From: Treponema sp.
GTDB taxonomy: Bacteria > Spirochaetota > Spirochaetia > Treponematales > Breznakiellaceae
Assembly (NCBI GenBank): GCA_031268385.1
Contig: JAIRXH010000140.1
Location: forward strand, 1 to 39,214
Length of the DNA stretch: 39,214 bases
Direction: 5' to 3'
The position numbers and the translations under genes were made by a program. The stretch's first letter is position 1, and the number at the start of each line of letters is the position of its first letter. Of the stretch, positions 2,268 to 23,353 are shown piece by piece. The notes below the pieces were generated by a model that made no database searches, was not told where the DNA came from, and worked only from the letters and a program-made list of their open reading frames with translations.

Positions 2268-2319
2268 TGTATTAAGGGGCTGTTTGCCCCTTGAAATATT
2301 TATGATCAAGGAGCGTTGT

Positions 2320-3618: not shown

Positions 3619-3631
3619 TATTTTGTTAATC

Positions 3632-3671
3632 AGGGAAACTTCCAAAAACCAGTGGTTTTCCGGAAGTTCCC
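3632..3671 (+). terminator. Intercistronic hairpin (attenuator or terminator)
   Basis: Outer arms AGGGAAACTTCC (3632-3643) and GGAAGTTCCCT (3661-3671) pair with one bulged A. An inner stem AAAACC/GGTTTT continues the hairpin, and TGTTGTTTT follows. It sits between the binding-protein gene and the hydrolase gene, where it could lower downstream expression or stabilise the transporter mRNA. Confidence 0.6.
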
Positions 3672-3743
3672 TGTTGTTTTGGCCGAGTTCCAGAAGAACG
3701 AAAGAGGCCGAAAAATATATTTGGTATGATCAGGAAGAAATAT

Positions 3744-5867
3744 ATGAAAGATTGGTATAAAAACCGTTTCAGGCGCAATTTGATTGATATGCATATTGAA
3801 GAATGGGATAGTTCTTTTTTATCACGTTTTGATCCTGATGTATATTTTGATAATCTTGCCGCCGCGAATATAAACGCCCCGATGATTTATTTCCAGTCGC
3901 ATGTTGGATTGTGTTATTGGCCTACCAGGAGCGGAAAAATGCACGCCTCTTTTAAGGGCCGGGAAGACAGCATGCGTAAACTGGTGGATAAATGCCACAA
4001 TGCGGGTATGGATGTAATTGCCTATTACAGCTTAATCTACAACAATTGGGCGTACAAGGCGCATCCTGACTGGCAGATGCGGGATATAAAAAATCATGGT
4101 TCGAGATTTGATGGAAACCGTTATGGTTTATGTTGTCCTAACAGCAATGGGTACAGAAAATTTGTCGCGGATCAAATTGAAGAAATGAGCGGTTATTTTG
4201 ATTTTGAGGGTATTTTTCTTGACATGACTTTTTGGCCGATGATTTGTTATTGTGACAATTGCAAGGAGCGCTGGGTAAAGGAAACGGGGGGTGAAATGCC
4301 TTCTGTAATTGACTGGAATGATCCCAATTGGGTTTCATTTCAGCGCAAGCGGATAGAATGGCTTGGGGATTTTGCGCAGTTTGCCACCGCTGAAGTAAAA
4401 AAACACAAACCCGATTGCTCTGTTGAACATCAATATTCGACGGCTGTTGATCATTTTTGGCGCTTTGGAGTGACGGAAAATATTACAAAGGCAAGTGATT
4501 ATGCCGGCGGAGATCTTTATGGAGGAATCGCCGAACAGTCTTTTGCCTGCAAAGTATATTACAATTTGACCAAAAATCAGCCTTTTGAATATATGACGTG
4601 CAGGTGTTATCCCAATTTGTCTGAACATACAACGAACAAATCCATGGATTTATTGCGTTTAAGTGTCATGGTCACTTATCTGCATCATGGAGCGTGTCTG
4701 CTTATTGACGCGATAGATCCTGTTGGCACAATTGACGGCCGGGTATATAAAAAAATAGGAGAAGTTTTCCGGGAGGCCGAGCCTTTTGAACCCTATCTTT
4801 CCATCGGCAGGCAGGCTTACGATGTCGGTCTTTATTTTAATATGTTTGCCAAAATGGACAGTATGGAGAATGGAATGTCGGCAGGTGATCCAATCATCAA
4901 TACTGCACAGCCTCATGAAAAAGCCGTCATGGAAGCGGCAAATTCACTGCGTGCCCATCATATTCCCTATACAGTTTTAAATAACTGGAAACTCGAATTG
5001 CTTTCCAGTGCCAGGATTCTGGTTCTTTCTGATGTTCCATTCTTGGGCGACGGAGAAGTAAACGCCATAAAAGAGTATATAAAAAACGGAGGGAATGCCT
5101 ATATAAGCGGCAGGACTAACCCCGCCTTGATTGAAGAAATATTCGGTGTAAAATTTGAAGGATACACTGAACACGGCATCACCTATATATCACCGACGGA
5201 GGAAGGGCTTTCTGTCATGAAGGGAGAGTTTACCAGAGAGTATCCTCTGGTTATGTTTGAGCGGCAGGCGCAATATACGGGCCGGTCGCCGGGGAAAACT
5301 TACGGTACAATGACACTTCCGTATACCATACCGAATCCAAAGAGCGGTTTTATTAGTATGTCTACTGATCCAAGTGGCGAACAGAAGAATTTGGATGAAC
5401 CAATGTACCGTTTTGTTTCCATACATTCCAATCCTCCGGGTATTTTTACCGACAAACCCGCTATGATGGAAATCAATTTCGGAAAAGGACGGGTCTTCTA
5501 TTCAAGCCTGCCTATAGAACGGGCAAAACGGGAACAGCATAGTGATATTTTTAGCGGGATTATCAAGAGGCTGCTGGATGGAAAGCCTGCTGTCTTTGCG
5601 TCATCGGATGCTCCTGAAACGGTGGAATGTATTCTTTTTGATGACGAGGAAAAGAAAGTCAAGCTTCTTGGCCTTGTAAATATACAGGAGTCTTTTCATA
5701 CAATCCCGGCGCGTGATTTTACGATCTCGGTTTACTCGGAGGCTTCTCCAAAAGAAGTTGTCGTTTTGCCGGCTAAAGAAAAAATTCCATTCCGGTATGA
5801 AAACAAACGCGTGCAGATACATATTGATTCAATCAGTCTGTATTCCATGATATTGCTTCAATTCTAA
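3744..5867 (+). CDS. GHL6-like glycoside hydrolase with beta-galactosidase-trimerisation-like domain
   Basis: This predicted cytoplasmic protein (707 aa, no signal peptide) resembles hypothetical glycosyl hydrolase family 6 (GHL6). The N-terminal half looks like a TIM barrel: a strand at MIYFQSHVGLCYWPT, then GKMH, then the barrel-core motif GIFLDMTFWP, where the Asp is a candidate catalytic residue. The C-terminal half contains ILVLSDVPFLGDGEV and a GGNAYISGRT segment, as in the GATase-like trimerisation domain of GH42 beta-galactosidases. ATG 3744 is preferred over 3726 because AGGAAG lies 6 bases upstream. It is the fourth gene of the sugar locus and probably cleaves the imported glycan. 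Substrate and activity are unknown, and GHL6 members are mostly uncharacterised. Confidence 0.7.
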   Translation: MKDWYKNRFRRNLIDMHIEEWDSSFLSRFDPDVYFDNLAAANINAPMIYFQSHVGLCYWPTRSGKMHASFKGREDSMRKLVDKCHNAGMDVIAYYSLIYNNWAYKAHPDWQMRDIKNHGSRFDGNRYGLCCPNSNGYRKFVADQIEEMSGYFDFEGIFLDMTFWPMICYCDNCKERWVKETGGEMPSVIDWNDPNWVSFQRKRIEWLGDFAQFATAEVKKHKPDCSVEHQYSTAVDHFWRFGVTENITKASDYAGGDLYGGIAEQSFACKVYYNLTKNQPFEYMTCRCYPNLSEHTTNKSMDLLRLSVMVTYLHHGACLLIDAIDPVGTIDGRVYKKIGEVFREAEPFEPYLSIGRQAYDVGLYFNMFAKMDSMENGMSAGDPIINTAQPHEKAVMEAANSLRAHHIPYTVLNNWKLELLSSARILVLSDVPFLGDGEVNAIKEYIKNGGNAYISGRTNPALIEEIFGVKFEGYTEHGITYISPTEEGLSVMKGEFTREYPLVMFERQAQYTGRSPGKTYGTMTLPYTIPNPKSGFISMSTDPSGEQKNLDEPMYRFVSIHSNPPGIFTDKPAMMEINFGKGRVFYSSLPIERAKREQHSDIFSGIIKRLLDGKPAVFASSDAPETVECILFDDEEKKVKLLGLVNIQESFHTIPARDFTISVYSEASPKEVVVLPAKEKIPFRYENKRVQIHIDSISLYSMILLQF

Positions 5868-5872
5868 TTAGT

Positions 5873-5906
5873 GTCTGTCCGTAATGTAGATACATTATGG
5901 ACAGAT
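5873..5906 (+). promoter_or_regulatory. 16-bp stem-loop before the cupin gene
   Basis: The arms 5873-5888 and 5891-5906 pair fully over 16 positions as RNA (two G-U pairs), with a two-base centre GA. It begins 5 bases after the stop codon of the GHL6-like gene. No T-run follows, so it is more likely an RNA processing or stability element, or a protein-binding palindrome, than a terminator. It argues against a start at GTG 5871, which would sit at its foot. Confidence 0.55.
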
Positions 5907-5939
5907 ATCCTTAAAAAATTATACAAAGGCGGGTTTCTT

Positions 5940-7154
5940 GTGAGTAGAAAAGAATTGGCATTAAAAGCCATGGAGAAAGGAAAAGGCATTTTGCAGCTTG
6001 CACCGGCTTGGGTTCCGCGTTCATTCTGCAGGCCTGGCAGACGCATTAAGCTTCACCCTTCGGATTACTATATATTTGGACTGGAGCGCGGAGGGGTTGA
6101 TGAACGCTGGTTTTCATCAACAACACACGCGGATAATGGCCCAAAGACACCTGAAGATGAGGGACTCAGTTATGTTGTAACAGATATGGAAAAATCGGAG
6201 AAGATTCTTCTTCTGGATGTTGTGGAAGAACTTAAAGGTGAAGTTATAGGCAGTGCCCTGTATAACAAGTATGGCCGCTGGCCTGTATATTCAAAGTTTT
6301 TTGATAATCTTGGACCGCTTCCGCACCATATTCACCATAACGATACATTTGCCGCACGGGTTGGACAATCCGGCAAGCCGGAAATGTATTTCTTCCCTTC
6401 CCAGGTCAACAATCACGGCGGAGAATTTCCGTTTACGTTCTTCGGACTGAATCCTGAAACCACAAAAGAAGAGGTCAGAGGCGCTCTTGAGGCGTTTTCC
6501 GGGGGTGATAACAATCTTCTGGGGCTTTCGAGGGCCTTTAAACTGGAACTGGATACCGGCTGGGATGTTCCTCCGGGCGTTCTCCATGCTCCAGGGAGTT
6601 TTTGTACATACGAACCTCAATTTGCATCGGATGTTTACGCCATGTTTCAGTCGGTCTTATATTATGAACATTGTGTTCCGGAAGAACTTTTGTGGAAGGA
6701 CTGTCCGCTTGAAGAAAAAGGTAATTTTGATTATCTTGTTTCCGTTATTGACTGGGAACTGAATGTTGACCCTGAATTTCACAGGAATCGTTTCATGTCC
6801 CCTCTGCCGGTATATCCTCCCGGTGAAATGCGGGCTCACGGTTATATTGAAGAATGGATTTGCTACAAATGTGAAAAAGTAAGCGCGAAACGCCTGACTG
6901 TGTTTCCGGGCAAGACGGTAACAATTACTGATAATGCCGCGTATGGTATTATTTGTCTGCAGGGCAACGGAACTTTTGGTGAATATAAGCTTGAATCGCC
7001 TACGTTGATACGTTATGGTGAATTTACCAATGATGAATTCTTTGTAACTGAAAGTACCGCGAAAAGCGGTGTTGTCATCAAAAATCTTTCCTCAACGGAA
7101 AATATCGTAATTCTCAAGCATTTCGCCGGGAATTCCGATTTGCAACTAAATTAA
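5940..7154 (+). CDS. Mannose-6-phosphate isomerase-like cupin protein
   Basis: This cytoplasmic protein (404 aa from this start) looks like a class I phosphomannose isomerase relative. It has the metal-binding cluster PLPHHIHHND, then KPEMYFFPSQ giving the metal-ligand Glu, and VPPGVLHAPGS with the third His, all in the order expected for a cupin active site. A second half with GNGTFGEY and PTLIRYGEF resembles the C-terminal cupin. I prefer GTG 5940, with AAAGGCGG 7 bases upstream, over GTG 5871, which falls at the edge of the hairpin at 5873-5906. It probably isomerises a (phospho)sugar released by the neighbouring hydrolases. The real substrate is unknown; similarity to ManA is in motifs rather than overall. 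Confidence 0.65.
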   Translation: MSRKELALKAMEKGKGILQLAPAWVPRSFCRPGRRIKLHPSDYYIFGLERGGVDERWFSSTTHADNGPKTPEDEGLSYVVTDMEKSEKILLLDVVEELKGEVIGSALYNKYGRWPVYSKFFDNLGPLPHHIHHNDTFAARVGQSGKPEMYFFPSQVNNHGGEFPFTFFGLNPETTKEEVRGALEAFSGGDNNLLGLSRAFKLELDTGWDVPPGVLHAPGSFCTYEPQFASDVYAMFQSVLYYEHCVPEELLWKDCPLEEKGNFDYLVSVIDWELNVDPEFHRNRFMSPLPVYPPGEMRAHGYIEEWICYKCEKVSAKRLTVFPGKTVTITDNAAYGIICLQGNGTFGEYKLESPTLIRYGEFTNDEFFVTESTAKSGVVIKNLSSTENIVILKHFAGNSDLQLN

Positions 7155-7164
7155 GGAGATACAA

Positions 7165-9744
7165 ATGAAAACTTTTGCCGAAGCGTTACAATTTTTCAAA
7201 AATGAAAAAGCACGCGTGCGTATTGCCATTTATCAAAGCGAAAATGTAAAAGATGATACCTTATATCGTGATCTTGAAAATTTCTTCAGGAAAAAATATT
7301 TTGCTGAAATAGTGGATACTTTTTTTGTTTATTCCTATGAAGCCCTGTTGAAAAACAACATAGACATCCTTGTCATTCCCGAGACACATACCCTGCGGCC
7401 TGAGACATTCGCAAGATTAAAAAATGTCATAAGGCGGGGTGGCGCGCTTGTCCTTGGCGGCAACGATATGTTAATGCAGGAGAGAACGGCGGAGGAAATT
7501 GAAAAGGCCGTAAACCTTAATAATCCGTTCAGATCGGCGGAAGAGCCTTCAAGAGATCCTCTTTATTATTACCGGACGACAATGGCGTTTCTCGGCGTAA
7601 AGCCGTATGTGTCGGACGTACGGCCTGTCAAGGTAAAATTTGACGCCGATTTTCTGAAAAATGTCCCCGGCGATTTCGTGGATCTTTCGCTTTACGTAGA
7701 TGGTGCAAAGTTCAATACCACAAGTGATATACGTGATCCCAATCCTTTCGCCGGTACTTCATTTGTGGAAAGATATGAAGTCCTCAGAAATTATGAAATT
7801 GTGACCGGACATGATGAAATGGGCCGAAAACTCAATTGTGCGGTCACTTTTGCACAGGATTGGGAGACGGGTGCGCGGATATGCTTGTTTCCATCGGTAT
7901 CCCAAGGTTCTTTTTTTGATAAAAATAACCCTTATTACGGAACCTTGCTTGACGGCGCGATAGAATTTTGCAGGAACAGGCTTGTTGTAAGTTATTGCAT
8001 GCCCCAATTTGTATGTTACAAACAGGGTGAGACCCCCTATATAGACTATAAAGTAAAATCCTTTTCTGATTGTGAGGAAAAATTTGAAGTGGTTGTTGTC
8101 ATTGCGGCCGATGGAAAGGAGGTTTTCAGACAGAGTACAGTTCATACGGCGTGCGCCAGAGGAGAGGTGAAAGGACTTGCGGTATGGAATTGTGACAAGT
8201 TCGATACGGACATATATGAAGTTGCCGTAAAAGTAATAAAAAACGGCAAAGTTGTTTCCAGGGGAACAAATGCCTTTGTTGTCTGGAATGAAGATGTCCT
8301 TAAACAGGGACGTGAAATGTTTAATGATGGTGAATATTTTAAAATAGACGGCAGGCGTTCGGTTTTGCTGGGTACAAATTATTATGATTCCCATACCAAT
8401 TCAGCAATGTGGGTAGTTCCAAATGTCTCAAAACTGAATGCGGATCTTAAACAGATGGCCGATTTTGGAATTAATTTTATCCGTATTCATTATCATCATC
8501 CCAAGTGGTTTTATGATTTCTGGATGCAGAGATACGGTTATGTTCCCGATATATACAAGGATCTTGGAAATTCCTGTTTGCCAACGGAAAAATATTTGAG
8601 GATCTTTGATGCTCATGTTTATTTGTGTCAAAAATATAAAATTATATATGGAGGTGATTTGTTTACCCTTCTGCCGGAAGAATTGGGAGATCCAAGGGGA
8701 TGGTATGGTGTTTATGATTATTGCGCCCTTGATGAAAAATTCGAGGCTCATAAGGAATTCCTCAATTTGATCATTCCACGGTATAAGGATGTTCCGGGGA
8801 TAACATGGGATATTATTAATGAGCCGGTTATTATTCCCGAGCAGGATATGACGGATAAATTTAACAGGCAGCTCATAGACTGGGCAAAAAAAATAAAAAA
8901 ATATATGCTGGAGCTTGGGGAACGGCATCCGATAACGGTTGGTGATTGTTCCGGGCCCAATCCGAATATAAAAAGAGCTTATACTGAAGTTTCCGATTAT
9001 CTTTCACCCCACGCAAACTGGCGTTACGCCGCGAACATGCGCTGGGAAAGTTTCAAGGGACCGCAGTTTTATCAGGAGGTCTGGATGGATCGTCCCTTTA
9101 CCCCAAAGGGAGACGTGGAGCAGCTTGATGATATGAAAAGTGGACTTTTTGATACATTCAGAACCGGTTTGGCCGGTTTTTCGCCGTGGCAGTGGACGGC
9201 ACAGCTGGCCATGTGGCAGGATCGGCTTACCTATCAGGGAGAAAATTGGGATGATATGCTTGGCTGCTGTGTAAGGCATGATGCAACCATAAAACCAGCG
9301 GGGAAATTTTACCGTGATTTCATTTGGCTTTTTGGCGATTTGTCGTTGATTGCGTACAGAGGTAATAATGTCATTGAGGCGAAAGAGGGAATTGTTACAT
9401 TTAAATCCGCAGATGAAACAAAATCGGGCGAGTATTATATGCTGCTTGAAAAAAATGGATTTCGCGTGCGCGGTATAGCAAGGGGCTTTTGCAAGGGAAA
9501 AGATTATGCTGTCGTGACGGACAAGGAAGCCTCTGCTGTATTGTTTGACTTCAGCAGGGAAGGAGTTGCGTATATAAAGGCGGACAGTGAATGCAAGATG
9601 GATATTACTCTTCCACGTTCTGCGGGAAAACTGTTTGTTACCGATGGCCTTGTAGAAGAAGAATTGAAGGTTCAAAATCAATCGTCCTTTAAACTTGATT
9701 TTCCGGCCTGGCAGTCTTACTACTGGCTTAAATTTGTTTATTAG
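7165..9744 (+). CDS. Clan GH-A-like glycoside hydrolase with N-terminal GATase-like domain
   Basis: This large protein (859 aa) lacks a signal peptide and should act in the cytoplasm. Residues 1-110 or so look like a class I amidotransferase-like Rossmann domain (DILVIPETHTL, then GGALVLGG). A beta-rich linker follows. From about residue 390 a TIM barrel begins (LLGTNYYDSH, then GINFIRIHYHHP). WDIINEP carries the clan GH-A acid/base Glu (E553), and E638 in FYQEVW is a candidate nucleophile. A beta-rich C-terminus ends the protein. It resembles GH5-like or GH2-like enzymes without fitting one family clearly. It starts 11 bases after the cupin gene with a strong AAGGAGA site. It is inferred to hydrolyse the imported oligosaccharide together with the GHL6-like enzyme. 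Confidence 0.7.
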   Translation: MKTFAEALQFFKNEKARVRIAIYQSENVKDDTLYRDLENFFRKKYFAEIVDTFFVYSYEALLKNNIDILVIPETHTLRPETFARLKNVIRRGGALVLGGNDMLMQERTAEEIEKAVNLNNPFRSAEEPSRDPLYYYRTTMAFLGVKPYVSDVRPVKVKFDADFLKNVPGDFVDLSLYVDGAKFNTTSDIRDPNPFAGTSFVERYEVLRNYEIVTGHDEMGRKLNCAVTFAQDWETGARICLFPSVSQGSFFDKNNPYYGTLLDGAIEFCRNRLVVSYCMPQFVCYKQGETPYIDYKVKSFSDCEEKFEVVVVIAADGKEVFRQSTVHTACARGEVKGLAVWNCDKFDTDIYEVAVKVIKNGKVVSRGTNAFVVWNEDVLKQGREMFNDGEYFKIDGRRSVLLGTNYYDSHTNSAMWVVPNVSKLNADLKQMADFGINFIRIHYHHPKWFYDFWMQRYGYVPDIYKDLGNSCLPTEKYLRIFDAHVYLCQKYKIIYGGDLFTLLPEELGDPRGWYGVYDYCALDEKFEAHKEFLNLIIPRYKDVPGITWDIINEPVIIPEQDMTDKFNRQLIDWAKKIKKYMLELGERHPITVGDCSGPNPNIKRAYTEVSDYLSPHANWRYAANMRWESFKGPQFYQEVWMDRPFTPKGDVEQLDDMKSGLFDTFRTGLAGFSPWQWTAQLAMWQDRLTYQGENWDDMLGCCVRHDATIKPAGKFYRDFIWLFGDLSLIAYRGNNVIEAKEGIVTFKSADETKSGEYYMLLEKNGFRVRGIARGFCKGKDYAVVTDKEASAVLFDFSREGVAYIKADSECKMDITLPRSAGKLFVTDGLVEEELKVQNQSSFKLDFPAWQSYYWLKFVY

Positions 9745-9769
9745 AGTTATTCAATAACTTCAGTTATTG
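9744..9769. repeat. Dispersed palindromic repeat, copy 1
   Basis: This 26-base sequence, containing AATAACTTCAGTTATT, matches 14802-14827 perfectly in inverted orientation. It starts on the last base of the GH-A hydrolase stop codon. It forms a small hairpin directly before the larger one at 9770-9808. See the findings for the family. Confidence 0.75.
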
Positions 9770-9808
9770 GAGCTTGTTTCAAAACCCGGTTGATTTTGGA
9801 ACAAGCTC
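9770..9808 (+). terminator. Terminator-like hairpin
   Basis: Arms of 15 bases (9770-9784 and 9794-9808, one G-U pair) enclose a 9-base loop and are followed by GATTATTTTC. The hairpin separates the GH-A hydrolase from the oxidoreductase gene, about 12 bases before that gene's AGGAGG ribosome site, so it may be a partial terminator or mRNA stabiliser. Confidence 0.6.
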
Positions 9809-12725: not shown

Positions 12726-12807
12726 TGCGGCCAAGAAGACTTGAACTTCCATACCTTTCGGCACCAGCACCTCAAGCTGGCGTGTCTACCAGTTCCACCA
12801 TGGCCGC
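12726..12807 (-). tRNA. tRNA-Leu (anticodon GAG)
   Basis: Read on the minus strand this is a class II tRNA of 82 bases. The acceptor arms GCGGCCA and TGGCCGC pair over 7 bp with discriminator A. The D-arm has GTGGAACTGGTAGACAC, the anticodon arm is CCAGC-TTGAGGT-GCTGG with anticodon GAG, a long variable arm follows, and the T-loop is TTCAAGT in a 5-bp stem. CCA is not encoded. It lies 22 bases downstream of the GH18-like gene. Its 3' end faces the accessory region on the left. Confidence 0.95.
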
Positions 12808-12829: not shown

Positions 12830-13915
12830 TTAGCCGTCATTGTCAATATCAAGCCGTATGAGGTTCCAGACGGAAGGGATCTCCTGTCCGATACGCCAGA
12901 AACCCGCGGCCCGGATACCCATAGAACGGTACATTTCCATGCGCGCCGAAAGGGAATAGTCGTCCTCGTAGTAAACCTTGACCGATACGGTAACGTCGTA
13001 GTCAAAGGAAGGAATGCCGTTTTCCCGGTGTATATCCGAGACGTTGTTTTCATCGATGATTGTTTGTATGCCGGAATAAAGGTAGGCCCGGGAGGGGCTT
13101 ATGTGTCCCCAGGCCCGGCCGTAAAAGGGGAGGCCCATGATGAGTTTTTCCCTGCCTATGGTCTCCAGTGAATATTCGGCCACCCGTCTGCACCAGCCCA
13201 TGGAAGCGATTGGCCCCGGCCTGCTGCCCGACCAGTGTTCGTCATAAGCCATCACGAGGATGCGGTCTACCAGGGGTTTGATTTTTACGTAATCGTAAAC
13301 ATCGGCGTTTACGGGGCGCGTCCGGGCCGGCAGCGCTATGGTGAACAGTTTGCCGGACAGTCCCGAACGCAGCTCCGCGAGGAACGAGAGGAAAGCCCGG
13401 CCGTCCCTTGGGGGAATGTTCTCAAAATCTATCTGGAGGCCGTCGAAATTTTCCGCGGCCCTGAGCAGATCGGCAATGAGCGTCCTGCGCTCGGGGCTTC
13501 CTTCGGCGAGGACAAAGTGGGAAAGCGCCCTGCCGTTGCAGGCTGCCACCATGTGAAGCCTGCCCCCGAAATTCCTGACATTCCGGGGGTTGGGCACGTC
13601 GACCAGTTTGCCGTACATGTCTATCTCCGCGCCGAAGTACCCTATATCGGTAAGGGGCATGCCGCCGCGAAAGGCGTTCTCCCGTCCGCTCAGAAGGTAG
13701 CCCCAGACTTCGGCAAAGGCGGAAACGGGCAGTTCCCTGTTTTCCGGGGGCAGTTCAACGGGAAGGTTTTCTTCGGCCGTTCCGGCTGTTTCCAGCATGT
13801 CTACGACTGCCGTTTCCTCTTCGGGTTTTTCCGGTTCTTCCGGAACCGAGGAACAGGCCGGCAACAGAATAAAAAAGACGGCGGACAGGATCGTGAAACG
13901 GTTTTTTTTACGCAG
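12830..13915 (-). CDS. GH18-like lipoprotein (chitinase/peptidoglycan hydrolase type)
   Basis: This is a predicted lipoprotein of 361 aa. Its catalytic domain has the GH18 motif DGxxxDxE as DGLQIDFE (D158, D163, E165; E165 should be the acid/base), followed by ILVMAYDEHW and LIMGLPFYGRAWG, typical of GH18. It may cleave chitin-like or peptidoglycan glycan chains in the periplasm. The frame shows a clear lipoprotein signal (KKNRFTILSAVFFILLPAC, lipid Cys21), but no ATG, GTG or TTG precedes it in frame. The best start is CTG 13915, 6 bases after GGGAGG; TTG 13864 would remove the signal. An A8 run on the coding strand (13902-13909) lies inside the signal. The catalytic domain is GC-rich like its neighbours. 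Confidence 0.8.
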   Translation of the reverse strand: MRKKNRFTILSAVFFILLPACSSVPEEPEKPEEETAVVDMLETAGTAEENLPVELPPENRELPVSAFAEVWGYLLSGRENAFRGGMPLTDIGYFGAEIDMYGKLVDVPNPRNVRNFGGRLHMVAACNGRALSHFVLAEGSPERRTLIADLLRAAENFDGLQIDFENIPPRDGRAFLSFLAELRSGLSGKLFTIALPARTRPVNADVYDYVKIKPLVDRILVMAYDEHWSGSRPGPIASMGWCRRVAEYSLETIGREKLIMGLPFYGRAWGHISPSRAYLYSGIQTIIDENNVSDIHRENGIPSFDYDVTVSVKVYYEDDYSLSARMEMYRSMGIRAAGFWRIGQEIPSVWNLIRLDIDNDG

Positions 13916-14053: not shown

Positions 14054-14749
14054 ATGGGGATTATTGAAAGAAAAGAAAGAGAAAAAGCGGGTCGGAAGGA
14101 TCTGATCATGCGGTGTGCCAAGGAACTCATCCTGGAACACGGCGTAGACAAGGTCAGTATGGTAGATATAGCCAAAAAGGCGGAGCTTTCCAAGGCGACC
14201 CTGTACCTTTATTTTCCCAGCAAGGATCTGCTTTTCAAGGAAATATGCGATATCGCCGGAATTCAGTTTATCAATTATTTCCGTTCCAGGCAAAGACCGG
14301 GGTTGTCTGTTGTTGATACGCTGAAGCTCATCTGGGATTGTTACCTGGATCTGTTCGGGGAATCGGACGACATGCTGGTTATTTTCAGCATGAAAAAATA
14401 CCTGGCGCCGGATTTTCCCTTTGTTCCCATAGAAAAAGATTCCCCGTCGCCCGCCGGTTCCAACTACGCGTTTTATTCCCTTCTTGTGGATCTGTTCACA
14501 AAGGGGGTGGAGGAAGGCGTTTTTGCCGAGGATGTGAGGCCCGCCTCAATTTCCCGGACATTCATAACGTTCTTTTCCTATGTTGTTGAAACCGCCGCCA
14601 AGCTGCCTAAAAGCGGTAACGACTACCGGTGGGCCATCGAGGAGCTGGCGAATCTTTTTCAGATCTTTCTGCGGGGCATAGCCAGGGACGGAACGGATCT
14701 TTCGGACCTCAAGCTGCCGGAATCGGCGGATGAAAAAAACAAAAGATAA
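14054..14749 (+). CDS. TetR-family transcriptional regulator
   Basis: This is a DNA-binding repressor of 231 aa. The N-terminal TetR helix-turn-helix is clear: AKELILEHGVDKVSMVDIAKKAELSKATLY, continuing LYFPSKDLLFKEI (about residues 20-60). The rest is a helical ligand-binding domain without a recognisable ligand. ATG 14054 is chosen because family members start about 20 residues before the HTH; the frame is open far upstream but that part is antisense to the GH18-like gene. Its ribosome site is weak. It directly precedes an RND exporter, a common arrangement in which the TetR protein represses its neighbour in response to a hydrophobic ligand. That link is inferred from position. Confidence 0.9.
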   Translation: MGIIERKEREKAGRKDLIMRCAKELILEHGVDKVSMVDIAKKAELSKATLYLYFPSKDLLFKEICDIAGIQFINYFRSRQRPGLSVVDTLKLIWDCYLDLFGESDDMLVIFSMKKYLAPDFPFVPIEKDSPSPAGSNYAFYSLLVDLFTKGVEEGVFAEDVRPASISRTFITFFSYVVETAAKLPKSGNDYRWAIEELANLFQIFLRGIARDGTDLSDLKLPESADEKNKR

Positions 14750-14796
14750 GCCGGTTTCCGAATGCCGGATTTTGGAACCGCGGCTTGAAGCGGAAT

Positions 14797-14827
14797 TTAT
14801 TCAATAACTGAAGTTATTGAATAACTC
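14797..14827. repeat. Dispersed palindromic repeat, copy 2 (TetR-RND gap)
   Basis: Perfect 13-bp arms (14797-14809 and 14812-14824) surround GA. Positions 14802-14827 are the exact inverse of the repeat at 9744-9769. It lies between the TetR gene and the RND exporter, where it could serve as an operator or as an mRNA stem-loop. It excludes TTG 14817 as the exporter start. Confidence 0.75.
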
Positions 14828-14852
14828 TATAGTAAAAAATAGGGGTAACATA

Positions 14853-17549
14853 ATGGCGAAATTTTTCAGGTATCCCTGGCTGATTCTTGCCGTCATAGCC
14901 GTCATAACGTTTTTTTTTGCCGCGCAGCTTCCGCGGGCGGAACTTGACAACAACAACCTCCGTTTTGTTCCAAAGGACGATCCGGCCCTCGCCGTGTCGC
15001 GGGACATAGACAATACCTTCGGAAGTTCCCTTTTCATTCTGATAGGACTGGAACGAAAATACGGAACCGTTTTTGACGGGGAATTTCTCGGCCTTGTAGA
15101 CGACTTTGTACGGTGGGTCGAGGAAATTCCCGTTGTCGAAAATGTCAAGGCCATCACCAATACCGATTACATCACGTCCAGCGGCGACTCCATCGTGGTT
15201 GAAAAGCTCACGGGAAGGGAATTTACGGGAAGCCCGGAAGAAATCGCGGAACTCAAACGGCGTATCCTTTCCTGGGACATGTACAGAAGATCCCTTGTTT
15301 CCGACGACTTTACTTCCACCCAGATCCTGGTGCCCCTTGACATCAGTTCGGATGACGCGGGAAAACCGGAGGTAATCGCCAGCTTTATCCGCATCAGGGA
15401 CAAGGCCAGGGAAATGTTCGACGGCGCCGCCCTGGTCTATGTGACGGGAATGCCCGTCATAAGCGCCGCCATCAACGAGGCGGTTACCGCCGATCTCAGG
15501 CTGCTTGTTCCCCTTGTCATCGCGGTAGTGCTGCTGGTGCTGTTCTTCTCGTTCAGACAATTCACCGGGGTGGTTCTTCCCCTGCTCACGGTTGTTGTCG
15601 CCGTCGTCTGGTCCATAGGCGCCATGCCCCTTTTCGGGGTAAAGCTGTCGGTCATAACAACGGTGCTGCCCGTCATCCTTGTCGCCGTGGGAAGCGCCTA
15701 TGGCATCCATGTGATTACCCATTATATCGCGGATACCGGCGGGAGGATCCTCAGCCGCGAAGAGCACCGCGAACTGGTCTTTGATCTCCTTCGGAAGACA
15801 GGAAAGCCCGTGTTCCTTGCCGCGCTTACCACCTTTGCCGGTTTCTTTTCGTTCTGTTTTACTTCCGTCGTGCCCATAAGGGAATTCGGTTTTTTTTCGA
15901 GTTTCGGGGTCTTTGTTTCCTTCGCCGTGGCGCTTACCCTTATTCCTTCGCTCCTTATCATACGGGGGCCCACATCCCTCCAGAGCGCTTCCCGTTCGCG
16001 TCACGGGGCGGCGGGAAGGCGGGCTGAAGAAAGCGATCCCTTCAGCGCGGCTGTGGCGGCGGGCCTTGTGAAGATCGCCGGAAAGAGGCGCTCTGTCATG
16101 GGGCTTACCGTCCTTGTTACTCTGGGCGCCCTTTTTGGTCTTTCAAGACTCGTCATTGACAATGTGTTTGTGGAGTATTTCAGGGACGATACGGACATTT
16201 ACAGGTCGGATGTTTTTATCCGGGACAAATTCGGCGGCTCAAAAACCGTCAGTGTTGTCATGGAGGCGGACGATTCGGAAACCCTTCTGCATCCCGATTC
16301 CCTTGCCGCCATGGACGGGCTTGGCGCGTACCTTTCCGGGCGGGTTCCCCAGGTGGGCAAGGTCATGGACTTTACTTCCCTTGTCAAACGGATAAACCAG
16401 GTGTTCAACGCCGGGGAGCGTCCCGAAGGGCTTGCCCCCGGCATCCGGGAAAACGCCGAAAGCCAGGAAGAACTGTCCGGCTTTGGTTTCGGCGGCTTTG
16501 GATTTGACCAGGACGATTTCGGTTTCGGCGGTTTTGAACCTGACGGCTCCCGGCAGCCGGACGGCGCCGGAGATTCCGTTTCCGGCGGCGGAATTGCCGG
16601 GGAACCTGGCGGCGGGGGAAAAAAGGTGTACACGGAGGAGGAACTTCTTGACCTCTTCGACAGGGCGGGCGGAAGATCCTGGACTATGAATGCGAACGAT
16701 CTTGTATGGGAACTCAAGCGGCTCGTTAATTACGAGGGCGCCGCCTATTACGAGATACCCGCCGATCCGGCGAAATACGGGAAGAAAAACCGGGAGGAAC
16801 TGGGGCGTCTTGTTTCAAATTATCTTGTGCTCCTTTCGGGAAGCATAGATGAATACGCCAATGATCCCCTTGAACCTACCAGAATAAAATCTACCGTCCA
16901 GCTGCGTACCAGGGGCGAATATGACAGCGGCGCCGCGCTTGCCGAAATAGACGGCTACATAAAGTCCCGCTTTCCTTCCAATGTAAGGGCTGTGGTAGGC
17001 GGCGTTACCCTGGTGGAATTTTCCCTTAACACACTGGTCGTGCAGTCCCAGCTTGTTTCGGTGATCTTTTCCGTTGTCATGGTGTTTGTCATCATCGCGG
17101 TTTCAAACCGGTCGGCTGTCGCGGGCATTATGGCCGTGATTCCCCTTTCCATTTCGGTTCTTGTCAACTTCGCGGTGATGGCTTTCGCGGGGATCAGGCT
17201 CAACATAGGAACCTCCATGGTGGCGAGCGTTTCGGTGGGCATAGGCATTGATTACACCATTCATTACATTGAGGCCTTCAAGCGTGAATACCGGGCCGCC
17301 CTTGCCTCGGGCGGGCAGTTCGGGGACGAATTTCTCGCGAGGACTTTCAGGACATCGGGAAAGGCGATAATAATAAACGCGGTTTCCGTCGGCGCGGGAT
17401 TCGCGGTGCTTCTCTTTTCCGAATTTGTCATGCTGGCCGATCTTGGGCTGCTCATAGCCCTTACCATGGGTACGAGCGCCCTTGTGAGCCTTACGGTCAT
17501 TCCGGTGCTGCTCATGTCCCTCAGGCCACAATTTATCGGCGGGAAGTAA
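14853..17549 (+). CDS. RND/MMPL-type exporter (HAE3-like)
   Basis: This is a large inner-membrane transporter of 898 aa with the RND layout. One N-terminal membrane helix (residues 5-24) is followed by a periplasmic loop (about 25-225), five helices including the sterol-sensing-like block PLLTVVVAVVWSIGAMPLFG, a cytoplasmic stretch, a second helix near 430, a second large loop and a final five-helix block (about 730-890) with SVGIGIDYTIHYIEAF. The Phe/Gly/Asp-rich segment at about residues 543-591 interrupts the second loop. ATG 14853 follows AGGGG by 8 bases. Proteins of this group move lipids or hydrophobic compounds using the proton gradient. The LolA-like protein and the barrel encoded next suggest a trans-envelope pathway. 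Confidence 0.9.
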   Translation: MAKFFRYPWLILAVIAVITFFFAAQLPRAELDNNNLRFVPKDDPALAVSRDIDNTFGSSLFILIGLERKYGTVFDGEFLGLVDDFVRWVEEIPVVENVKAITNTDYITSSGDSIVVEKLTGREFTGSPEEIAELKRRILSWDMYRRSLVSDDFTSTQILVPLDISSDDAGKPEVIASFIRIRDKAREMFDGAALVYVTGMPVISAAINEAVTADLRLLVPLVIAVVLLVLFFSFRQFTGVVLPLLTVVVAVVWSIGAMPLFGVKLSVITTVLPVILVAVGSAYGIHVITHYIADTGGRILSREEHRELVFDLLRKTGKPVFLAALTTFAGFFSFCFTSVVPIREFGFFSSFGVFVSFAVALTLIPSLLIIRGPTSLQSASRSRHGAAGRRAEESDPFSAAVAAGLVKIAGKRRSVMGLTVLVTLGALFGLSRLVIDNVFVEYFRDDTDIYRSDVFIRDKFGGSKTVSVVMEADDSETLLHPDSLAAMDGLGAYLSGRVPQVGKVMDFTSLVKRINQVFNAGERPEGLAPGIRENAESQEELSGFGFGGFGFDQDDFGFGGFEPDGSRQPDGAGDSVSGGGIAGEPGGGGKKVYTEEELLDLFDRAGGRSWTMNANDLVWELKRLVNYEGAAYYEIPADPAKYGKKNREELGRLVSNYLVLLSGSIDEYANDPLEPTRIKSTVQLRTRGEYDSGAALAEIDGYIKSRFPSNVRAVVGGVTLVEFSLNTLVVQSQLVSVIFSVVMVFVIIAVSNRSAVAGIMAVIPLSISVLVNFAVMAFAGIRLNIGTSMVASVSVGIGIDYTIHYIEAFKREYRAALASGGQFGDEFLARTFRTSGKAIIINAVSVGAGFAVLLFSEFVMLADLGLLIALTMGTSALVSLTVIPVLLMSLRPQFIGGK

Positions 17550-17619
17550 TTATTGACACTTCGTATTACTATATGAGTATGCGGCGGTGATTCGGCCGCC
17601 TGGTACAGAGGAGTAAAAA

Positions 17620-18417
17620 ATGAATAAAAAAATTTTTCTGTTTTTTCTGGCCGTTTTCGCGGCAGGGCTTCTTCCGGGAACGGAAGGGCTTTTCGCGCAG
17701 GAGGACGCCTACGCCATTGTACACGCGTCCCGGAACCGTATAAGCGCCCTGACGATTTCCACGAGATCCCGCATGGTCATTACCGCGCGGGACGGAAGCA
17801 CGACGGAACGGATCCTCGATCAGTACTCCAAGGACGGCCAAGGGGGAAACGGCCGGAGCGTTATCGTATTCCAGCGTCCGCAGTCGGTGGCAGGCACCCG
17901 TTTTCTTGTCATTGAAAATCCCGGTTCGAATGACGACCGCTGGATATTTCTTCCGTCGCTGGGAAAGGTGCGGCGCATAGCCGCCTCGGAGGGATCCGCG
18001 AGTTTCATGGGGACCGATTTCTCCTACGACGACATTTCTTCCGCGGGCAGGAGCGCCGATCTTGACAGTCACTCGCTTGCCGGGGAGGAACGTCTTGACG
18101 GGAGGCTCTGCCACGTGATCGAGTCCCGGCCCAGGGACGCTTCGTATCAGTATTCGCGGATGGTTCAGTGGATAGACAGGGAAACAGGGGTTAACCGCAA
18201 ACTTGAATTGTACGACAAACGGAATGTCCTCGTAAAAAGGGTGGAGATGCTTGACGTGCGGGAAATTCAGGGGAGGCTTTCGCCCATGGTCACCAAAATG
18301 ACCACGCTGGCGGCGGGTACCTCGACGATCCTTTACGTGGATATTCTCAAATATGACGATCCCATTCCCGAAAGCGTTTTCACGACCGCGTATCTTGAGA
18401 CAGGGAGGGCGCGGTGA
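17620..18417 (+). CDS. LolA-like outer membrane lipoprotein-sorting protein
   Basis: This is a secreted protein of 265 aa with signal peptide 1-26 (cleavage near GLFA-QED). The mature part matches the outer membrane lipoprotein-sorting protein family, an open beta-sheet half-barrel related to LolA/LolB; its typical sequences are DRWIFLPSLGKVRRIAASEGSASFMGTDFSYDD (positions about 105-140, here split across family motifs WIFLPSLGKVRRI and SFMGTDFSY). T. pallidum TP0789 is, to my knowledge, a member. The gene has GAGGAG before its ATG, follows the RND gene by 70 bases and overlaps the next gene by 4 bases. It probably carries a lipid or hydrophobic molecule through the periplasm between the exporter and the outer membrane. 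Confidence 0.85.
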   Translation: MNKKIFLFFLAVFAAGLLPGTEGLFAQEDAYAIVHASRNRISALTISTRSRMVITARDGSTTERILDQYSKDGQGGNGRSVIVFQRPQSVAGTRFLVIENPGSNDDRWIFLPSLGKVRRIAASEGSASFMGTDFSYDDISSAGRSADLDSHSLAGEERLDGRLCHVIESRPRDASYQYSRMVQWIDRETGVNRKLELYDKRNVLVKRVEMLDVREIQGRLSPMVTKMTTLAAGTSTILYVDILKYDDPIPESVFTTAYLETGRAR

Positions 18418-19874
18418 AAAAATTCGAAGGAAGGCGCCCGTACGCCGTTTTTGCCGCCCTGTTCCTTGTCTTTTTTCCCGCCGGAGGGGGCGCACAGGAC
18501 GCCGGCTTCGGTTTTGGTTTTGACGGTGATGATTCAGGAGGTGTTTCGGTTTCTCTTCCTGTTTCGGTAAAACTTGGCGGCAGGGCGCGGGGGGAGCTTC
18601 TTGCCTTTTTTGATGATCTTAATACCTTTGAGGAACTGAAGAAGTCGCGCCCCGGCGATATTTTTGACGGCGCGCTTTATTTCAGCGCGTCGGCGTCAAA
18701 CGCGGACGCCGTCATAAACCTCACGCTTGGTACGGACGGAAACAGTCCCGTTGCCCTGGACGAGGCTTTCCTCAGGGTGTATTTTGGTCCTCTTGGCATC
18801 GAGGCGGGCCTCAGAAAGCTCACATGGGGCAGGGCCGACAGTTTCGGTCCGCTTGACGTGGTAAACCCCCTGGATTATTCGGATCTTTCGCGGATCATGA
18901 AACTGCGCGAAATCAAGATAGCCCGCCCCATGGTTCACGGAACGGTGGACATTGGAAGCGCTTCAAGGATCGAGGCGGTGTTCATTCCCGGTTTCGAGGG
19001 ACACAAGTTCGCCTCCTCGGGGCGCTGGGCGCCTTCCTTCATGCTGGACAACCTCCTTCCGTCTTCCGTGAACAGCCTCCTTTCCCCCATTGTGAACAGC
19101 GTTTACAACGCCCTTGCTCCCGTTGCGGGCAGTTTTTACAGTCTCCTCCCCGACACGGGAACCATTGAATACATGCAGGCCGGCGCGCGCTTTACCACAA
19201 CCCTTGGGCCCGCCGATTTTGGGGCGCAGTATTTTTTCGGCAACCTCTTCCGGCCTTCGTACAGCATTGAGGGGGTAGACGCTTTTCTTCTCGATCTTGT
19301 GACGGTTCTTCCCTCAAATCCCCGGTACACGGGGAATTTTTCCCTTCTGCGTCCCCATATCGAATATAACCGTTACCACCAGATAGGCGCCGACTGGGCC
19401 CAGGTGGTGGCGGACTTTAACATACGGGCGGAACTCGCGGCCCATATCACGCAGGATCTTGCCGGAGACGCCATCTGGGTGCGGAATCCCTTCATAAGCT
19501 GGTCGTTTGGTTTTGACCGTGATACCGTGTGGGACATCAATGTGAACCTGCAGTGCAACGAGTCCATACGCCTTTTCGGCGACAAAAAAAATGACATTTT
19601 CGAGATTGGTTCCGGGAAAAACGAACTGCCCATTTCCACACGGCTGACGCTGATACTGTCCAAAAAATTCCTCAGGGACAACCTCGAAATCACGTGTACA
19701 GGGATTTATGATCCTGAGGAAACAGGCTTTTACTTTATTCCCGCGGTTTCCTGGTCCATAGGTGAAGTCACCGCGGATCTGCAGGCGGGTATTTTCGCGG
19801 GGAAAGAGGGAGGAGAGTTGTCTTCGTACCGCAACAGCGGCTACATCAAAACGGCGCTGACCTATTCTTTTTAA
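18414..19874 (+). CDS. Outer-membrane beta-barrel protein of an RND/LolA-like system
   Basis: This is a predicted outer-membrane protein of 486 aa. The signal peptide ends at about GGGAQ-DAG. The mature part has many alternating beta strands and ends in ALTYSF, a C-terminal aromatic typical of barrels. Motifs LRVYFGPLGIEAGLRKLTWG and DVVNPLDYSDLSR resemble DUF1302-type or porin-like proteins that accompany MMPL exporters and LolA-like (DUF1329) proteins in proteobacteria. The GTG start overlaps the previous stop by 4 bases (GTGA), so translation is probably coupled. It likely provides the outer-membrane end of the pathway. The family call is from motif and context only. Confidence 0.75.
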   Translation: MKKFEGRRPYAVFAALFLVFFPAGGGAQDAGFGFGFDGDDSGGVSVSLPVSVKLGGRARGELLAFFDDLNTFEELKKSRPGDIFDGALYFSASASNADAVINLTLGTDGNSPVALDEAFLRVYFGPLGIEAGLRKLTWGRADSFGPLDVVNPLDYSDLSRIMKLREIKIARPMVHGTVDIGSASRIEAVFIPGFEGHKFASSGRWAPSFMLDNLLPSSVNSLLSPIVNSVYNALAPVAGSFYSLLPDTGTIEYMQAGARFTTTLGPADFGAQYFFGNLFRPSYSIEGVDAFLLDLVTVLPSNPRYTGNFSLLRPHIEYNRYHQIGADWAQVVADFNIRAELAAHITQDLAGDAIWVRNPFISWSFGFDRDTVWDINVNLQCNESIRLFGDKKNDIFEIGSGKNELPISTRLTLILSKKFLRDNLEITCTGIYDPEETGFYFIPAVSWSIGEVTADLQAGIFAGKEGGELSSYRNSGYIKTALTYSF

Positions 19875-19895: not shown

Positions 19896-22019
19896 TTACA
19901 GCGCGAGGGACGCGAGATAGTTTTCAAACGCTTCCCGCGCTGTCCGCGATGTCTTTTCCGCCTGTTCAAGCTGCTCAAGAAGACTGTCTATGCCGGCGTC
20001 CGCCGTGGAAAGGCGCCGCAGATATTCCTGTCCCTGGGGCGTCGTGTTTCCAGCCGCTTCAAGGTTTGCCCGTATGCGGGCCTGCTCGGAAATGAGGCGT
20101 TCCCTTCTGTCCGCGATGGCCGTTTCTTCCTCTTTCGCCGCGTCGGCCGCCTGTTTCAGCGAAACGGCTTCCCGCAGGGCCCGCCTAACGCTCTCGGGAA
20201 TCTCCCGTGTTGACGCGTAGGAGAGCAGGTTTTCTGTGCGCAGGGCCGAAAGGGTTATCCGTTCCGAAAGGGGAATTTCCTCGTGTACGGAAAAGACGCT
20301 TTCGGAACCGGCGCCTATGGAGCGGATGAAGCGGTACACCGCCTGGGTTTTTTCCTCCGGCTCCGACAGAATTACCGGTTTGGAGGAAAGCGCCTGTTCC
20401 GGCTTTTCCCGCGAAAGTTCCGCGCCCGCCGTTATGGGATGTTCAATGACAAGCTCCCGCGTCTGGTCCGTGTTGTTTTTTACCGTGTACGTGCGCTCGT
20501 GCAGCTCCCGCCTGCTTACCGTCATGACTCCGCCTGATATGGCCGCGGCGCTTATAACCCGCGAAACGGATGTTTTCGAGATCGCCGTAACGGAAAGATC
20601 CTCCCCGTAGGAAAGGAGCCTTTTCTCCCCGCCTGAAAGGAATTCTATGAGGGCGTCTCCGGCATAGGTCCCCCCGTCGTACACCGTGACAGGACCGGCG
20701 GGGAACTGTATGTCCGTTGTATTGGTAATTTCGGCTCCAAGCCGAGGATGTACGATTTTATTGGCCATGTCCGCCCCGGAAAGGACAAGCAGCTTCCTGA
20801 CAGGAGGCCTCGCCTGTACCATGGGCAGCATGGCGCTCATGCGGCGGTCAAGGGTTACGTCCCGTATGGTGAACTCGAACTGATCCCCTGCGGCTTGGGC
20901 CTCGGCCGCCAAAGCTCCGTAATCGGCGACGGTATCGGCCATCGCCTTGTTCATGGGCGGGGCGGCGCGCGCGCGCATTGCGGGAGCTATCGACTGCTCC
21001 TCCATTACAGAGGGGCTTTCGGGGTTGAAATCCGTGTCGTCCCATGCATATCCCGAATCGTAGGTTTTCGCTTCGGCGGTTCCCGCGATTGCCAGGGGCA
21101 GAACAGGCCTCGAAATATAAAAGGGCGGATAAAGATTCTGTATGAACGAAACGGGCCTTCCGGCCACGAGCGACAGTTCCACATTTTTCCAGTCGCTGTC
21201 GCTGTCGTTATCGACAATGGCCCATCCCTGAAGAAAGGCCCCGTCCCCGGACGCGAGATCCAGCCTGTAGGAGACTTTCCAGACAGGGGCGGAAATGACG
21301 TAACTTGCCGAAACGGAACGGCTTTCTCCGCCGCCCAGATTAAGGGTGAGTTCACGCGAAGTTGAATTGCCCGACGCCGCGAGAAGATCCAGCGCCCGGT
21401 TCAGATCCGCTCCCACGCGGGGATCGGGAAAATTTACGGTGGCTATGTCCTTCAGGTTTACCGAACGGAGGCCCGATGCCGTAAAGATGATGAGCCAGGG
21501 TTCCGCCGCCGCCGGAAGGCGGGATTCCTGTACCGGGGCGCTTTTGTATTCGATGCCGATGATTCTTCCCCGTATGGAAGAAGGGGCGGTAATTTCTATT
21601 TCCGCCCCCCTCATGGACGCCAGTATGGACGCGAGATCGGGATTTCCCGAAAGATCGATTAAAAGGCTTCCAAGGGTGGCGGCAAGGGTCTGTTCCGAAG
21701 GGTAGCTTACCCTCGGCGCTTCTCCCCCTGCGGAGGCGGGATCAAGGATTACCAGCGATTTGAGCGCGTCGTTGACGGCTTCGGTCCTGAAGGGGAGCCG
21801 CACGACGGACGGTCCTGAAACCGTTCCCGAATGTTCATAATAGGCGACGCCGGAAGAAAAAAGGGCGATACGCCTGAGCGGAAGGTCCGCGGCCGGGCCG
21901 GAACGCGCCGCTTCTCCCGCCGCCTGGGCTTCAAGGCCGGTCGTGGCGGCCAATCCCAATACCGCCAGTAACGCTCCGGCCGCCGTCTTTCCTGTTATGC
22001 CGTGTACCGGTGTTTTCAT
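19896..22019 (-). CDS. DUF4139 domain secreted protein
   Basis: This exported protein (707 aa) has a signal peptide (MKTPVHGITGKTAAGALLAV, continuing to about residue 32). The DUF4139 domain is recognised by VWKVSYRLDLASGDGAFLQG and the NDSDSDWKNVELSLVAGRP stretch, both typical. The C-terminal 110 residues are charged and heptad-like (ERLISEQARIRANLEAAGN), probably a coiled coil. ATG 22019 overlaps the DUF3999 stop as ATGA and has GGGGGA upstream, so it is the last gene of the pfp operon. DUF4139 proteins include MuiA-like ones, but no molecular function is established. Location in the periplasm or outer membrane is inferred. Confidence 0.8.
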   Translation of the reverse strand: MKTPVHGITGKTAAGALLAVLGLAATTGLEAQAAGEAARSGPAADLPLRRIALFSSGVAYYEHSGTVSGPSVVRLPFRTEAVNDALKSLVILDPASAGGEAPRVSYPSEQTLAATLGSLLIDLSGNPDLASILASMRGAEIEITAPSSIRGRIIGIEYKSAPVQESRLPAAAEPWLIIFTASGLRSVNLKDIATVNFPDPRVGADLNRALDLLAASGNSTSRELTLNLGGGESRSVSASYVISAPVWKVSYRLDLASGDGAFLQGWAIVDNDSDSDWKNVELSLVAGRPVSFIQNLYPPFYISRPVLPLAIAGTAEAKTYDSGYAWDDTDFNPESPSVMEEQSIAPAMRARAAPPMNKAMADTVADYGALAAEAQAAGDQFEFTIRDVTLDRRMSAMLPMVQARPPVRKLLVLSGADMANKIVHPRLGAEITNTTDIQFPAGPVTVYDGGTYAGDALIEFLSGGEKRLLSYGEDLSVTAISKTSVSRVISAAAISGGVMTVSRRELHERTYTVKNNTDQTRELVIEHPITAGAELSREKPEQALSSKPVILSEPEEKTQAVYRFIRSIGAGSESVFSVHEEIPLSERITLSALRTENLLSYASTREIPESVRRALREAVSLKQAADAAKEEETAIADRRERLISEQARIRANLEAAGNTTPQGQEYLRRLSTADAGIDSLLEQLEQAEKTSRTAREAFENYLASLAL

Positions 22020-23353
22020 GGTACATCCCCCTTCTTTATGATTCCCGCGGCATAACAGGCAAGGCCCGTCAGAATAATTGCCGCTACTCCCAGTATACCC
22101 CATAAAAGAAATTCTCCAAAGCGCCGGGGCGGAGGGGAACCTTTTCCGCCCTCCCTGTAGACAAATTCCCCGGCGGCGGCCCTTTCGGCGGCCGTCCCGG
22201 CGGGAACCGTGAAACTCTCCGGGGGGCCCGCGCCGGCGTTTCCAAAGGCAAGAGTCCAGGGCCCCTTGCCCCTTCCGGGAAAAACGATCTCCCTTGCTTC
22301 CCAGAAAAAAACCCCTTCGGGGGCCTTGGCGAAGGGGAAAGAAAGCGATTCAAGTTCCCAGTAAGGCGCCGAAGAGGATATGTCCATGGGCTCATGGGTC
22401 CGCTCCCCGTCTTCACCTGAAAAACGAAACAGGGTCATCCGTCCCGCGTTCCGCCATTCGCCGTTTTTATCCCTGTTTCTTAGCAGCGCCTCAATGGAGT
22501 CGGCTTCAGGAAGGATGAAATTGACGGACACGACAGGATAAAACCCCCCCGTGTCATAGTCAATGACGCGGCGCCGTTCGTCACGGAAGGTTCCCGCCGC
22601 GATCCTTTCCATACGGGGAGGCGGCGCTTGTACTTCGTCAAAATACGCCGTGACGCCCAGGAGCGGCGGAACGGGAGTTTCAAATTTCAAAAGAACATAA
22701 CGCGCGCCGGTTTCGGGGACCAGGACGGTATTGCGGTTTACGTCCGAATTGCCGTACCGGGCGATGATCTGCCGCCTTCCGGATTCCTGCCACCGGGAAA
22801 GATCCTCCGTTCCCGAAAATAACCGTACGGCGGAATTGTAATTGCTTCCGTCTTCCAGGGAAAGGACAAGGGAAGACGGAGCGTAACCGAACGCGGAACA
22901 GTCAAGGAGGTACACAGGCCCGCCGCCCGCCGTTCCGCCGCCCCGGCTGTTGACGCGGACCACCGTTCCCGACGTGTCTATTACTATGTCGGTTCCGGCG
23001 GGAAGCGCGCCGTTTTCCTCTTCCCATACAAAGAACGGCACATCCCGCGGCGGCGGAATAAAGACGGCCCCTGGAACGGGTCGCACCGTAAAGGGAACCG
23101 GGAAACCTTCGGCGTCAAAGATCCGCATGTCGGCCATGTCGGCCCGTTCAAGTCCCCGGTACACCGCCTCGGGAATTTCAAAGGAAAGGAGCCTCCCCTC
23201 CCTTCCGTCAAGGACGATCCTTCCGGCAAATTCCCCTTTCTCCTTTTCCTTTCCGGCCGGCGCCTCCATCTCCTTTTCCTCAAACGCCGGTTCCGTCATG
23301 GCGGGTTCCCGCCACAGGACAGGAAGGAAAAGAAGGAAAACAGCTTTACGCAT
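22016..23353 (-). CDS. DUF3999 family envelope protein
   Basis: This envelope protein (445 aa) has an N-terminal signal (MRKAVFLLFLPVLW), an acidic Glu/Lys-rich linker, a large periplasmic beta-rich region and one C-terminal membrane helix (about residues 416-437, LLWGILGVAAIILTGLACYA) before a short cytoplasmic tail. This is the usual shape of DUF3999. DUF3999 genes commonly lie beside DUF2339 genes, as here. Its start overlaps the DUF2339 gene by 8 bases and its stop overlaps the DUF4139 gene by 4, so translation is likely coupled. Function unknown; RFSGEDGERTHEP and the beta-rich body suggest a binding or scaffold role. Confidence 0.75.
   Translation of the reverse strand: MRKAVFLLFLPVLWREPAMTEPAFEEKEMEAPAGKEKEKGEFAGRIVLDGREGRLLSFEIPEAVYRGLERADMADMRIFDAEGFPVPFTVRPVPGAVFIPPPRDVPFFVWEEENGALPAGTDIVIDTSGTVVRVNSRGGGTAGGGPVYLLDCSAFGYAPSSLVLSLEDGSNYNSAVRLFSGTEDLSRWQESGRRQIIARYGNSDVNRNTVLVPETGARYVLLKFETPVPPLLGVTAYFDEVQAPPPRMERIAAGTFRDERRRVIDYDTGGFYPVVSVNFILPEADSIEALLRNRDKNGEWRNAGRMTLFRFSGEDGERTHEPMDISSSAPYWELESLSFPFAKAPEGVFFWEAREIVFPGRGKGPWTLAFGNAGAGPPESFTVPAGTAAERAAAGEFVYREGGKGSPPPRRFGEFLLWGILGVAAIILTGLACYAAGIIKKGDVP

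Follow-up and report, generated by a model that had tools for sequence, protein, structure and literature searches.

The gene set, its products and its surroundings

The window, that is the whole stretch of 39,214 nucleotides that was analysed, is contig C32 of a draft genome (2.86 Mb, 85% completeness); the named genomes closest to it are MAGs of Treponema and Spirochaetaceae. Judging from our reading of their isolate codes, these relatives probably come from termite guts. The locus comprises four genes, all on the + strand and all supported by Pfam matches or by a structural model, as a preliminary description of this DNA had claimed. They encode a TetR-family regulator of 231 aa (14054-14749; PF00440, E = 2.2e-14), an HAE3/MMPL-type RND pump of 898 aa, counted from the ATG (14853-17549; PF03176, 2.9e-42), a LolA_like periplasmic carrier of 265 aa with a signal peptide (17620-18417; PF17131, 3.1e-60) and a DUF1302-related outer-membrane beta-barrel of 486 aa with a GTG start (18414-19874), assigned on the basis of its AlphaFold2 (AF2) model, its structural neighbours and the DUF1302 matches of its relatives. 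The pump and carrier genes are separated by 70 bases, whereas the carrier gene runs 4 bases into the barrel gene. An overlap of this kind is found in 52 of the 75 relatives that have both genes.

Among genomes of the same family, 55 out of 60 encode the carrier. In a separate collection of 80 independent named spirochaete loci, partly overlapping these 60 genomes, an RND gene lies upstream of the carrier gene in 73 cases, a barrel gene lies downstream in 75, and both are present in 70. These counts bear out both the genetic link between the proteins and the conserved trans-envelope set that had been proposed. The TetR gene is directly 5' of the pump gene in 29 of the 54 loci for which 1 kb or more of upstream sequence is available and is therefore a frequent, not an obligatory, member. 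The gene set occurs also beyond the family, at order and class level. A LolA frame of 899 aa in locus L154 was rejected as a fusion, being a chance open frame over the pump gene.

A divergent GH18-like gene (12830-13864, - strand) lies upstream of the set, in a position that is kept in the nearest relatives; a tRNA gene detected by Rfam (12726-12807, - strand) adjoins it. On the other side, genes for DUF4139 and DUF3999 proteins (19896-23353) are convergent to the barrel gene and keep this downstream position in the nearest relatives. Elsewhere in the window, open frames of 427, 859 and 357 aa (5871-9744 and 37557-38630) gave no Pfam matches at E 0.001. Scans for sigma-70-like promoters and for terminators gave results equal or close to those expected by chance.

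The perfect palindrome at 14800-14821 was considered as a TetR operator and rejected. Its core, TTCAATAACTGAAGTTATTGAA, occurs 42 times in exact form across the genome, between common flanks, and the palindrome is therefore an interspersed repeat, whose copy at this site covers 14786-14829 with no strand assigned. A second copy, with one change in the core, is found in the window at about 9750-9771. The flanks have the consensus TGAAGCGGAATTTGTTCAATAACTGAAGTTATTGAACAACTCTA, a second hairpin, GCTAAAGCCAGGCTTTAGC, often adjoins, and the core is present also in a relative locus (L053/L146). A different recurring palindrome, of the TGACCGnCGGTCA kind, was observed upstream of the TetR gene in L113, L138, L139, L163, L164 and L168, and is a candidate operator of the orthologous TetR regulators; it was not found in the window itself.

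The pump has an MMPL domain (the PF03176 match) and, in the order seen in the model, two TM-periplasmic-TM halves, which are the features of HAE3/MMPL RND proteins. Its match to the HAE3 model TIGR00921 (9.6e-66) scores 222 bits, where the cut-off is 352, which places it outside NCBI's named HAE3 subfamily; with ACR_tran it scores 21.7 bits, under the cut-off of 28. An HAE1 tripartite system of the AcrAB-TolC kind was not recognized at the locus, where the neighbouring genes encode the TetR protein, the LolA_like carrier, the barrel, GH18 and DUF4139, with no gene for an adaptor or a TolC-type channel. The best Foldseek neighbours of the AF2 model (mean pLDDT 83.8) are MmpL5, MmpL4 and HpnN (E 1e-22 to 1e-23), and the structural relatives of the pump carry lipids, hopanoids, siderophores or sterols. 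HAE3/MMPL pumps, such as HpnN, MmpL3 and AmeD, draw on the proton gradient to transport a hydrophobic molecule out of the inner membrane. The model contains one long disordered stretch, residues 531-589 (16443-16619, + strand; pLDDT <50), between TM segments 7 and 8, which RND topology places in the second periplasmic domain.

The carrier passes PF17131 (LolA_like) with 203 bits against a cut-off of 30 and scores 25.9 bits with DUF1329, against 23.1. Since DUF1329 is matched by all 55 carriers of the same-family genomes, the carrier is, as far as profiles can tell, a DUF1329 relative. Its relatives of solved structure (9tp6, 4z48 and 3bk5) belong to the LolA superfamily, and so does the carrier; the fold of this superfamily holds a hydrophobic cavity. 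The canonical LolA family, PF03548, does not match the carrier gene of the window and is represented by another gene of the same genome, on contig C178.

The AF2 model of the 486-aa protein, obtained with 64 homologues, is a beta-barrel with a mean pLDDT of 84.1, and thus the barrel that had been predicted for this protein was recovered. In structure comparisons it came closest to the OprD/Occ porins and AlgE, with Z 20-22 and an rmsd of about 3-5 across some 280-310 residues; by sequence, no convincing solved relative was found. DUF1302 (PF06980) does not match the barrel of the window itself. It does match 9 of 64 close relatives (best E 9.3e-9), so that the barrel is, by this sequence relationship, probably a remote DUF1302 relative. 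The N-terminus of the model, residues 22-47, is disordered (pLDDT <50).

A motif shared by the pump loop and the barrel N-terminus

The disordered segment of the pump and the mature N-terminus of the barrel have in common a short aromatic/acidic motif, FGFGFD in this genome, which the preliminary description had not mentioned and which the present analysis adds. In the pump it appears as GFGFGGFGFDQDDFGFGGF within the periplasmic insert (core 16479-16538), and in the barrel as AGFGFGFDGDD (18504-18539) within the disordered residues 28-50 (18495-18563, + strand). In the relatives, FGF is present in 48 of 50 pump loops, as compared to 4.4 in shuffles, and in 61 of 64 barrel N-termini, as compared to 7.7, i.e. 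about 8-11 times the shuffled level, and all 79 carriers lack an FGF-type motif. FGF-type matches amount to 26 per 1000 residues in the loops and 19 in the barrel N-termini, as compared to 0.4 and 0.9 elsewhere in these proteins. Within stretches that are otherwise variable, the motif's F and G reach more than 90% conservation. The pump commonly has two to three copies and the barrel one to two, the latter starting at a median of 3 residues past the predicted cleavage site. The synonymous codons used for the motif differ between the pump copy and the barrel copy.

In lineages where the spelling of the motif changes, it changes in the pump and in the barrel of the same locus: to SFFEE in L174-L175, SFFDD in L179 and PPLGFE/PPPLGFD in L178 and, at further loci, to DDWGS in L185, DFGS in L186 and DFGDFG in L211. 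When the similarity of cognate loops and tails was compared with that of permuted pairings, 0-1 in 20,000 was obtained at 19 clusters and 2-7 at 12; at 7 deep clusters the permutation result was weaker (158-1479 in 20,000), and this test models no phylogeny. Cognate similarity also exceeded that of composition-preserving shuffles (combined z 7.8), with two negative controls that were flat (-0.9 and 0.6). Counted by locus, FGF is present in both proteins in 76 systems, in the loop only in 3, in the tail only in 2 and in neither in 13, so that the two proteins agree in 89 of 94 systems. A phylogeny-paired sign test gave 4 concordant and 0 discordant pairs (p 0.125), too few informative pairs to give this test adequate power.

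In the same genome, pattern and profile scans revealed no comparable motif cluster in other proteins; the other FG-containing hits were unrelated proteins or frames under longer ORFs, and none had an N-terminal cluster. The motif accompanies the long-loop pump subfamily. Among the short-loop spirochaete systems and the other phyla examined, no sharing was seen, save a possible LLGDF match in L207. Related non-spirochaete and short-loop systems have the carrier without the motif, which is therefore dispensable for carrier use in general. The median net charge is -11 for the pump loop and -5 for the barrel tail; a charge match between carrier and motif was discarded, as the motif showed no relation to the carrier's net charge. 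A literature search found no paper on such a motif.

Two further observations were made in short motifs of other systems. The L207 pump (1639-4467, - strand) carries LLGDFDT in its first periplasmic domain, and the N-terminus of the corresponding barrel (4483-6210, - strand) reads LLGDFGS; this pair may be a tag that arose convergently at a different site (z 1.4). The barrels of L196, L198, L199 and L201-L203, which belong to short-loop systems of other spirochaete classes, have a mature N-terminal motif (D/E)Yx(x)LF, for instance TDYGALFD and EDYSSLFN, unmatched in the cognate pumps.

A possible trans-envelope export line and its alternatives

These observations may be accounted for by an export line across the envelope for a lipid or another strongly hydrophobic cargo, in which the tags of the pump and of the barrel both dock the carrier, a reading for which we regard the case as evenly balanced. 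The proton-driven pump would extract the cargo from the inner membrane, the LolA_like carrier would take it across the periplasm, and the DUF1302-related barrel would pass it through the outer membrane or insert it there; the TetR protein may sense the cargo or a related molecule. The pump loop and the barrel tail would dock one and the same face of the carrier, which might thus be held near the pump first and near the barrel next, and the larger number of tag copies on the pump would be in keeping with a carrier pool local to the pump. We infer carrier binding, cargo class, direction and regulation, and export is the direction suggested by the relatives. A lipid, a glycolipid or a toxic hydrophobe is the more likely cargo. 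Matching donor and acceptor tags read by one carrier surface would be the simplest use of the motif. We propose more tentatively that the tags form a lineage-specific, linear "address code" on the pump and its cognate barrel, read by the carrier, so that short motifs instead of a rigid adaptor would match the partners.

The matching spellings and their joint change would also be forced if the pump loop and the barrel tail bound each other, by homotypic contacts of the FG-cohesion or steric-zipper type, and so tied the components of both membranes together. We consider this unlikely: loop and tail are both acidic, which disfavours their pairing without cations, and a degenerate loop (DDFGVFKTF) persists in the pump of a T. 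pallidum-like genome in which the profile search found no such barrel. It is similarly improbable, perhaps slightly more so, that some other periplasmic factor, such as a SurA-like chaperone or peptidoglycan, recognizes the motif as a generic tag unrelated to cargo hand-over. SurA-like chaperones prefer aromatic-X-aromatic peptides, FGF is such a peptide, and the barrel motif is located at the mature N-terminus; however, no proteins of the same genome other than this pump and this barrel were seen to carry the motif, and PPLGFE and DDWGS, which are not aromatic-X-aromatic, still match between the two proteins. Low-complexity inserts are common in G+C-rich genomes, and the motif might then be neutral sequence arising from compositional bias, with no function. 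Given that composition-preserving shuffles are exceeded, that F-G pairs are conserved amid variable flanks and that synonymous codons differ between the two copies, we regard such an origin as very improbable.

The last alternative concerns the cargo, since the preliminary description had named lipoproteins beside lipids. PF17131 is named after its resemblance to LolA, and the spirochaete Borrelia has no known LolB homologue (PMC13078400), both of which would fit a lipoprotein export route in place of the Lol pathway. Against this, the same genome has a separate canonical LolA (PF03548), so that lipoprotein sorting does not need this gene set, and the pump is related to transporters of lipids and small hydrophobes. 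In the Lol pathway, moreover, LolA is fed by the ABC complex LolCDE, not by an RND pump, and it is an RND pump that partners the carrier here. Lipoprotein cargo is thus not favoured, and we hold such a route to be very unlikely. Carrier docking by both tags, the reading that we prefer, lends itself to experiment: matching tags that change jointly on donor and acceptor make carrier addressing testable with peptides. Such tags bear on how hydrophobic molecules traverse the periplasm where no continuous channel spans it, and on how a soluble carrier recognizes its donor and acceptor in HAE3/DUF1302 systems. The motif is, in addition, a sequence feature by which the pumps of a genome may be paired with its barrels.

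Comparison with known systems

Synteny of pump, carrier and barrel genes was found in annotated Fusobacteriota and Alphaproteobacteria and, with DUF1329, in Betaproteobacteria. The annotated records read DUF1302-MMPL-LolA_like in Haliovirga abyssi, YCF48-MMPL-DUF1302-DUF1329 in Aromatoleum, MMPL-DUF1329-photosystem II factor-like (YCF48 type)-DUF1302 in Methylibium and LolA_like-MMPL-hypothetical protein of barrel size in Thalassospira. The spirochaete pump and carrier profiles match all four sets, and the likeness to the proteobacterial sets is therefore homology, at least for pump and carrier; the barrel profile matches, among the four, only the Haliovirga DUF1302 protein (1.5e-17). The suggested parallel to proteobacterial MMPL/DUF1329/DUF1302 sets thus holds as homology, with the sets of other phyla matched in part.

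The closest comparison is with AmeABCD of Castellaniella defragrans, a cluster for the efflux of apolar monoterpenes that exports hydrophobes and whose deletion lowers monoterpene tolerance and raises Nile Red accumulation (PMC6394551). Both systems encode together an HAE3-type RND pump (AmeD), a carrier of the LolA superfamily (the DUF1329 protein AmeB) and a barrel (in AmeABCD the DUF1302 protein AmeA). By profile, homology covers pump and carrier for the Aromatoleum and Methylibium equivalents and all three parts for the Haliovirga set. The spirochaete set differs in that it has PF17131 instead of full-length DUF1329, often includes a TetR gene, has a pump that is about 110 residues longer with a disordered loop, carries the shared motif and is without the YCF48-like AmeC, no YCF48-like gene being present among the genes scanned around the locus. 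It probably works like AmeABCD and, lacking AmeC, is not filed as AmeABCD-type.

In Thalassolituus oleivorans, C28 alkane induces a fusion protein of MMPL and LolA whose gene is followed by a porin gene (PMC6304351). TOL_3187/TOL_3188 of this organism resemble the spirochaete set in combining MMPL and LolA-like domains with an adjoining porin-like gene; unlike it, they have pump and carrier in one protein and are tied to growth on alkanes. This fusion argues that pump and carrier touch. The likeness to the hopanoid transporter HpnN and to MmpL4/MmpL5 concerns the pump fold. MmpL4/5 work with MmpS, and we know of no operon with a LolA_like carrier and a barrel for HpnN or MmpL4/MmpL5.

The parallel with TP0788-TP0790 of T. 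pallidum, also drawn in the preliminary description, stands for part of the set. In a T. pallidum-like genome (G115, 1.14 Mb), the orthologous carrier and pump genes, corresponding to TP0789-TP0790, lie side by side with a flagellin gene beside them; a genome profile search detected no barrel of this family, and the adjacent gene, on the opposite strand, does not resemble a barrel gene. A published model presents TP0790 as an AcrB orthologue that works with a MacA-type adaptor and TolC (PMC8407342). The pairing of MMPL and LolA_like proteins argues instead for TP0790 as an MMPL-type pump with a LolA_like partner and, for TP0789-TP0790 of the syphilis spirochaete, offers an alternative hypothesis to the AcrB-type model of the literature.
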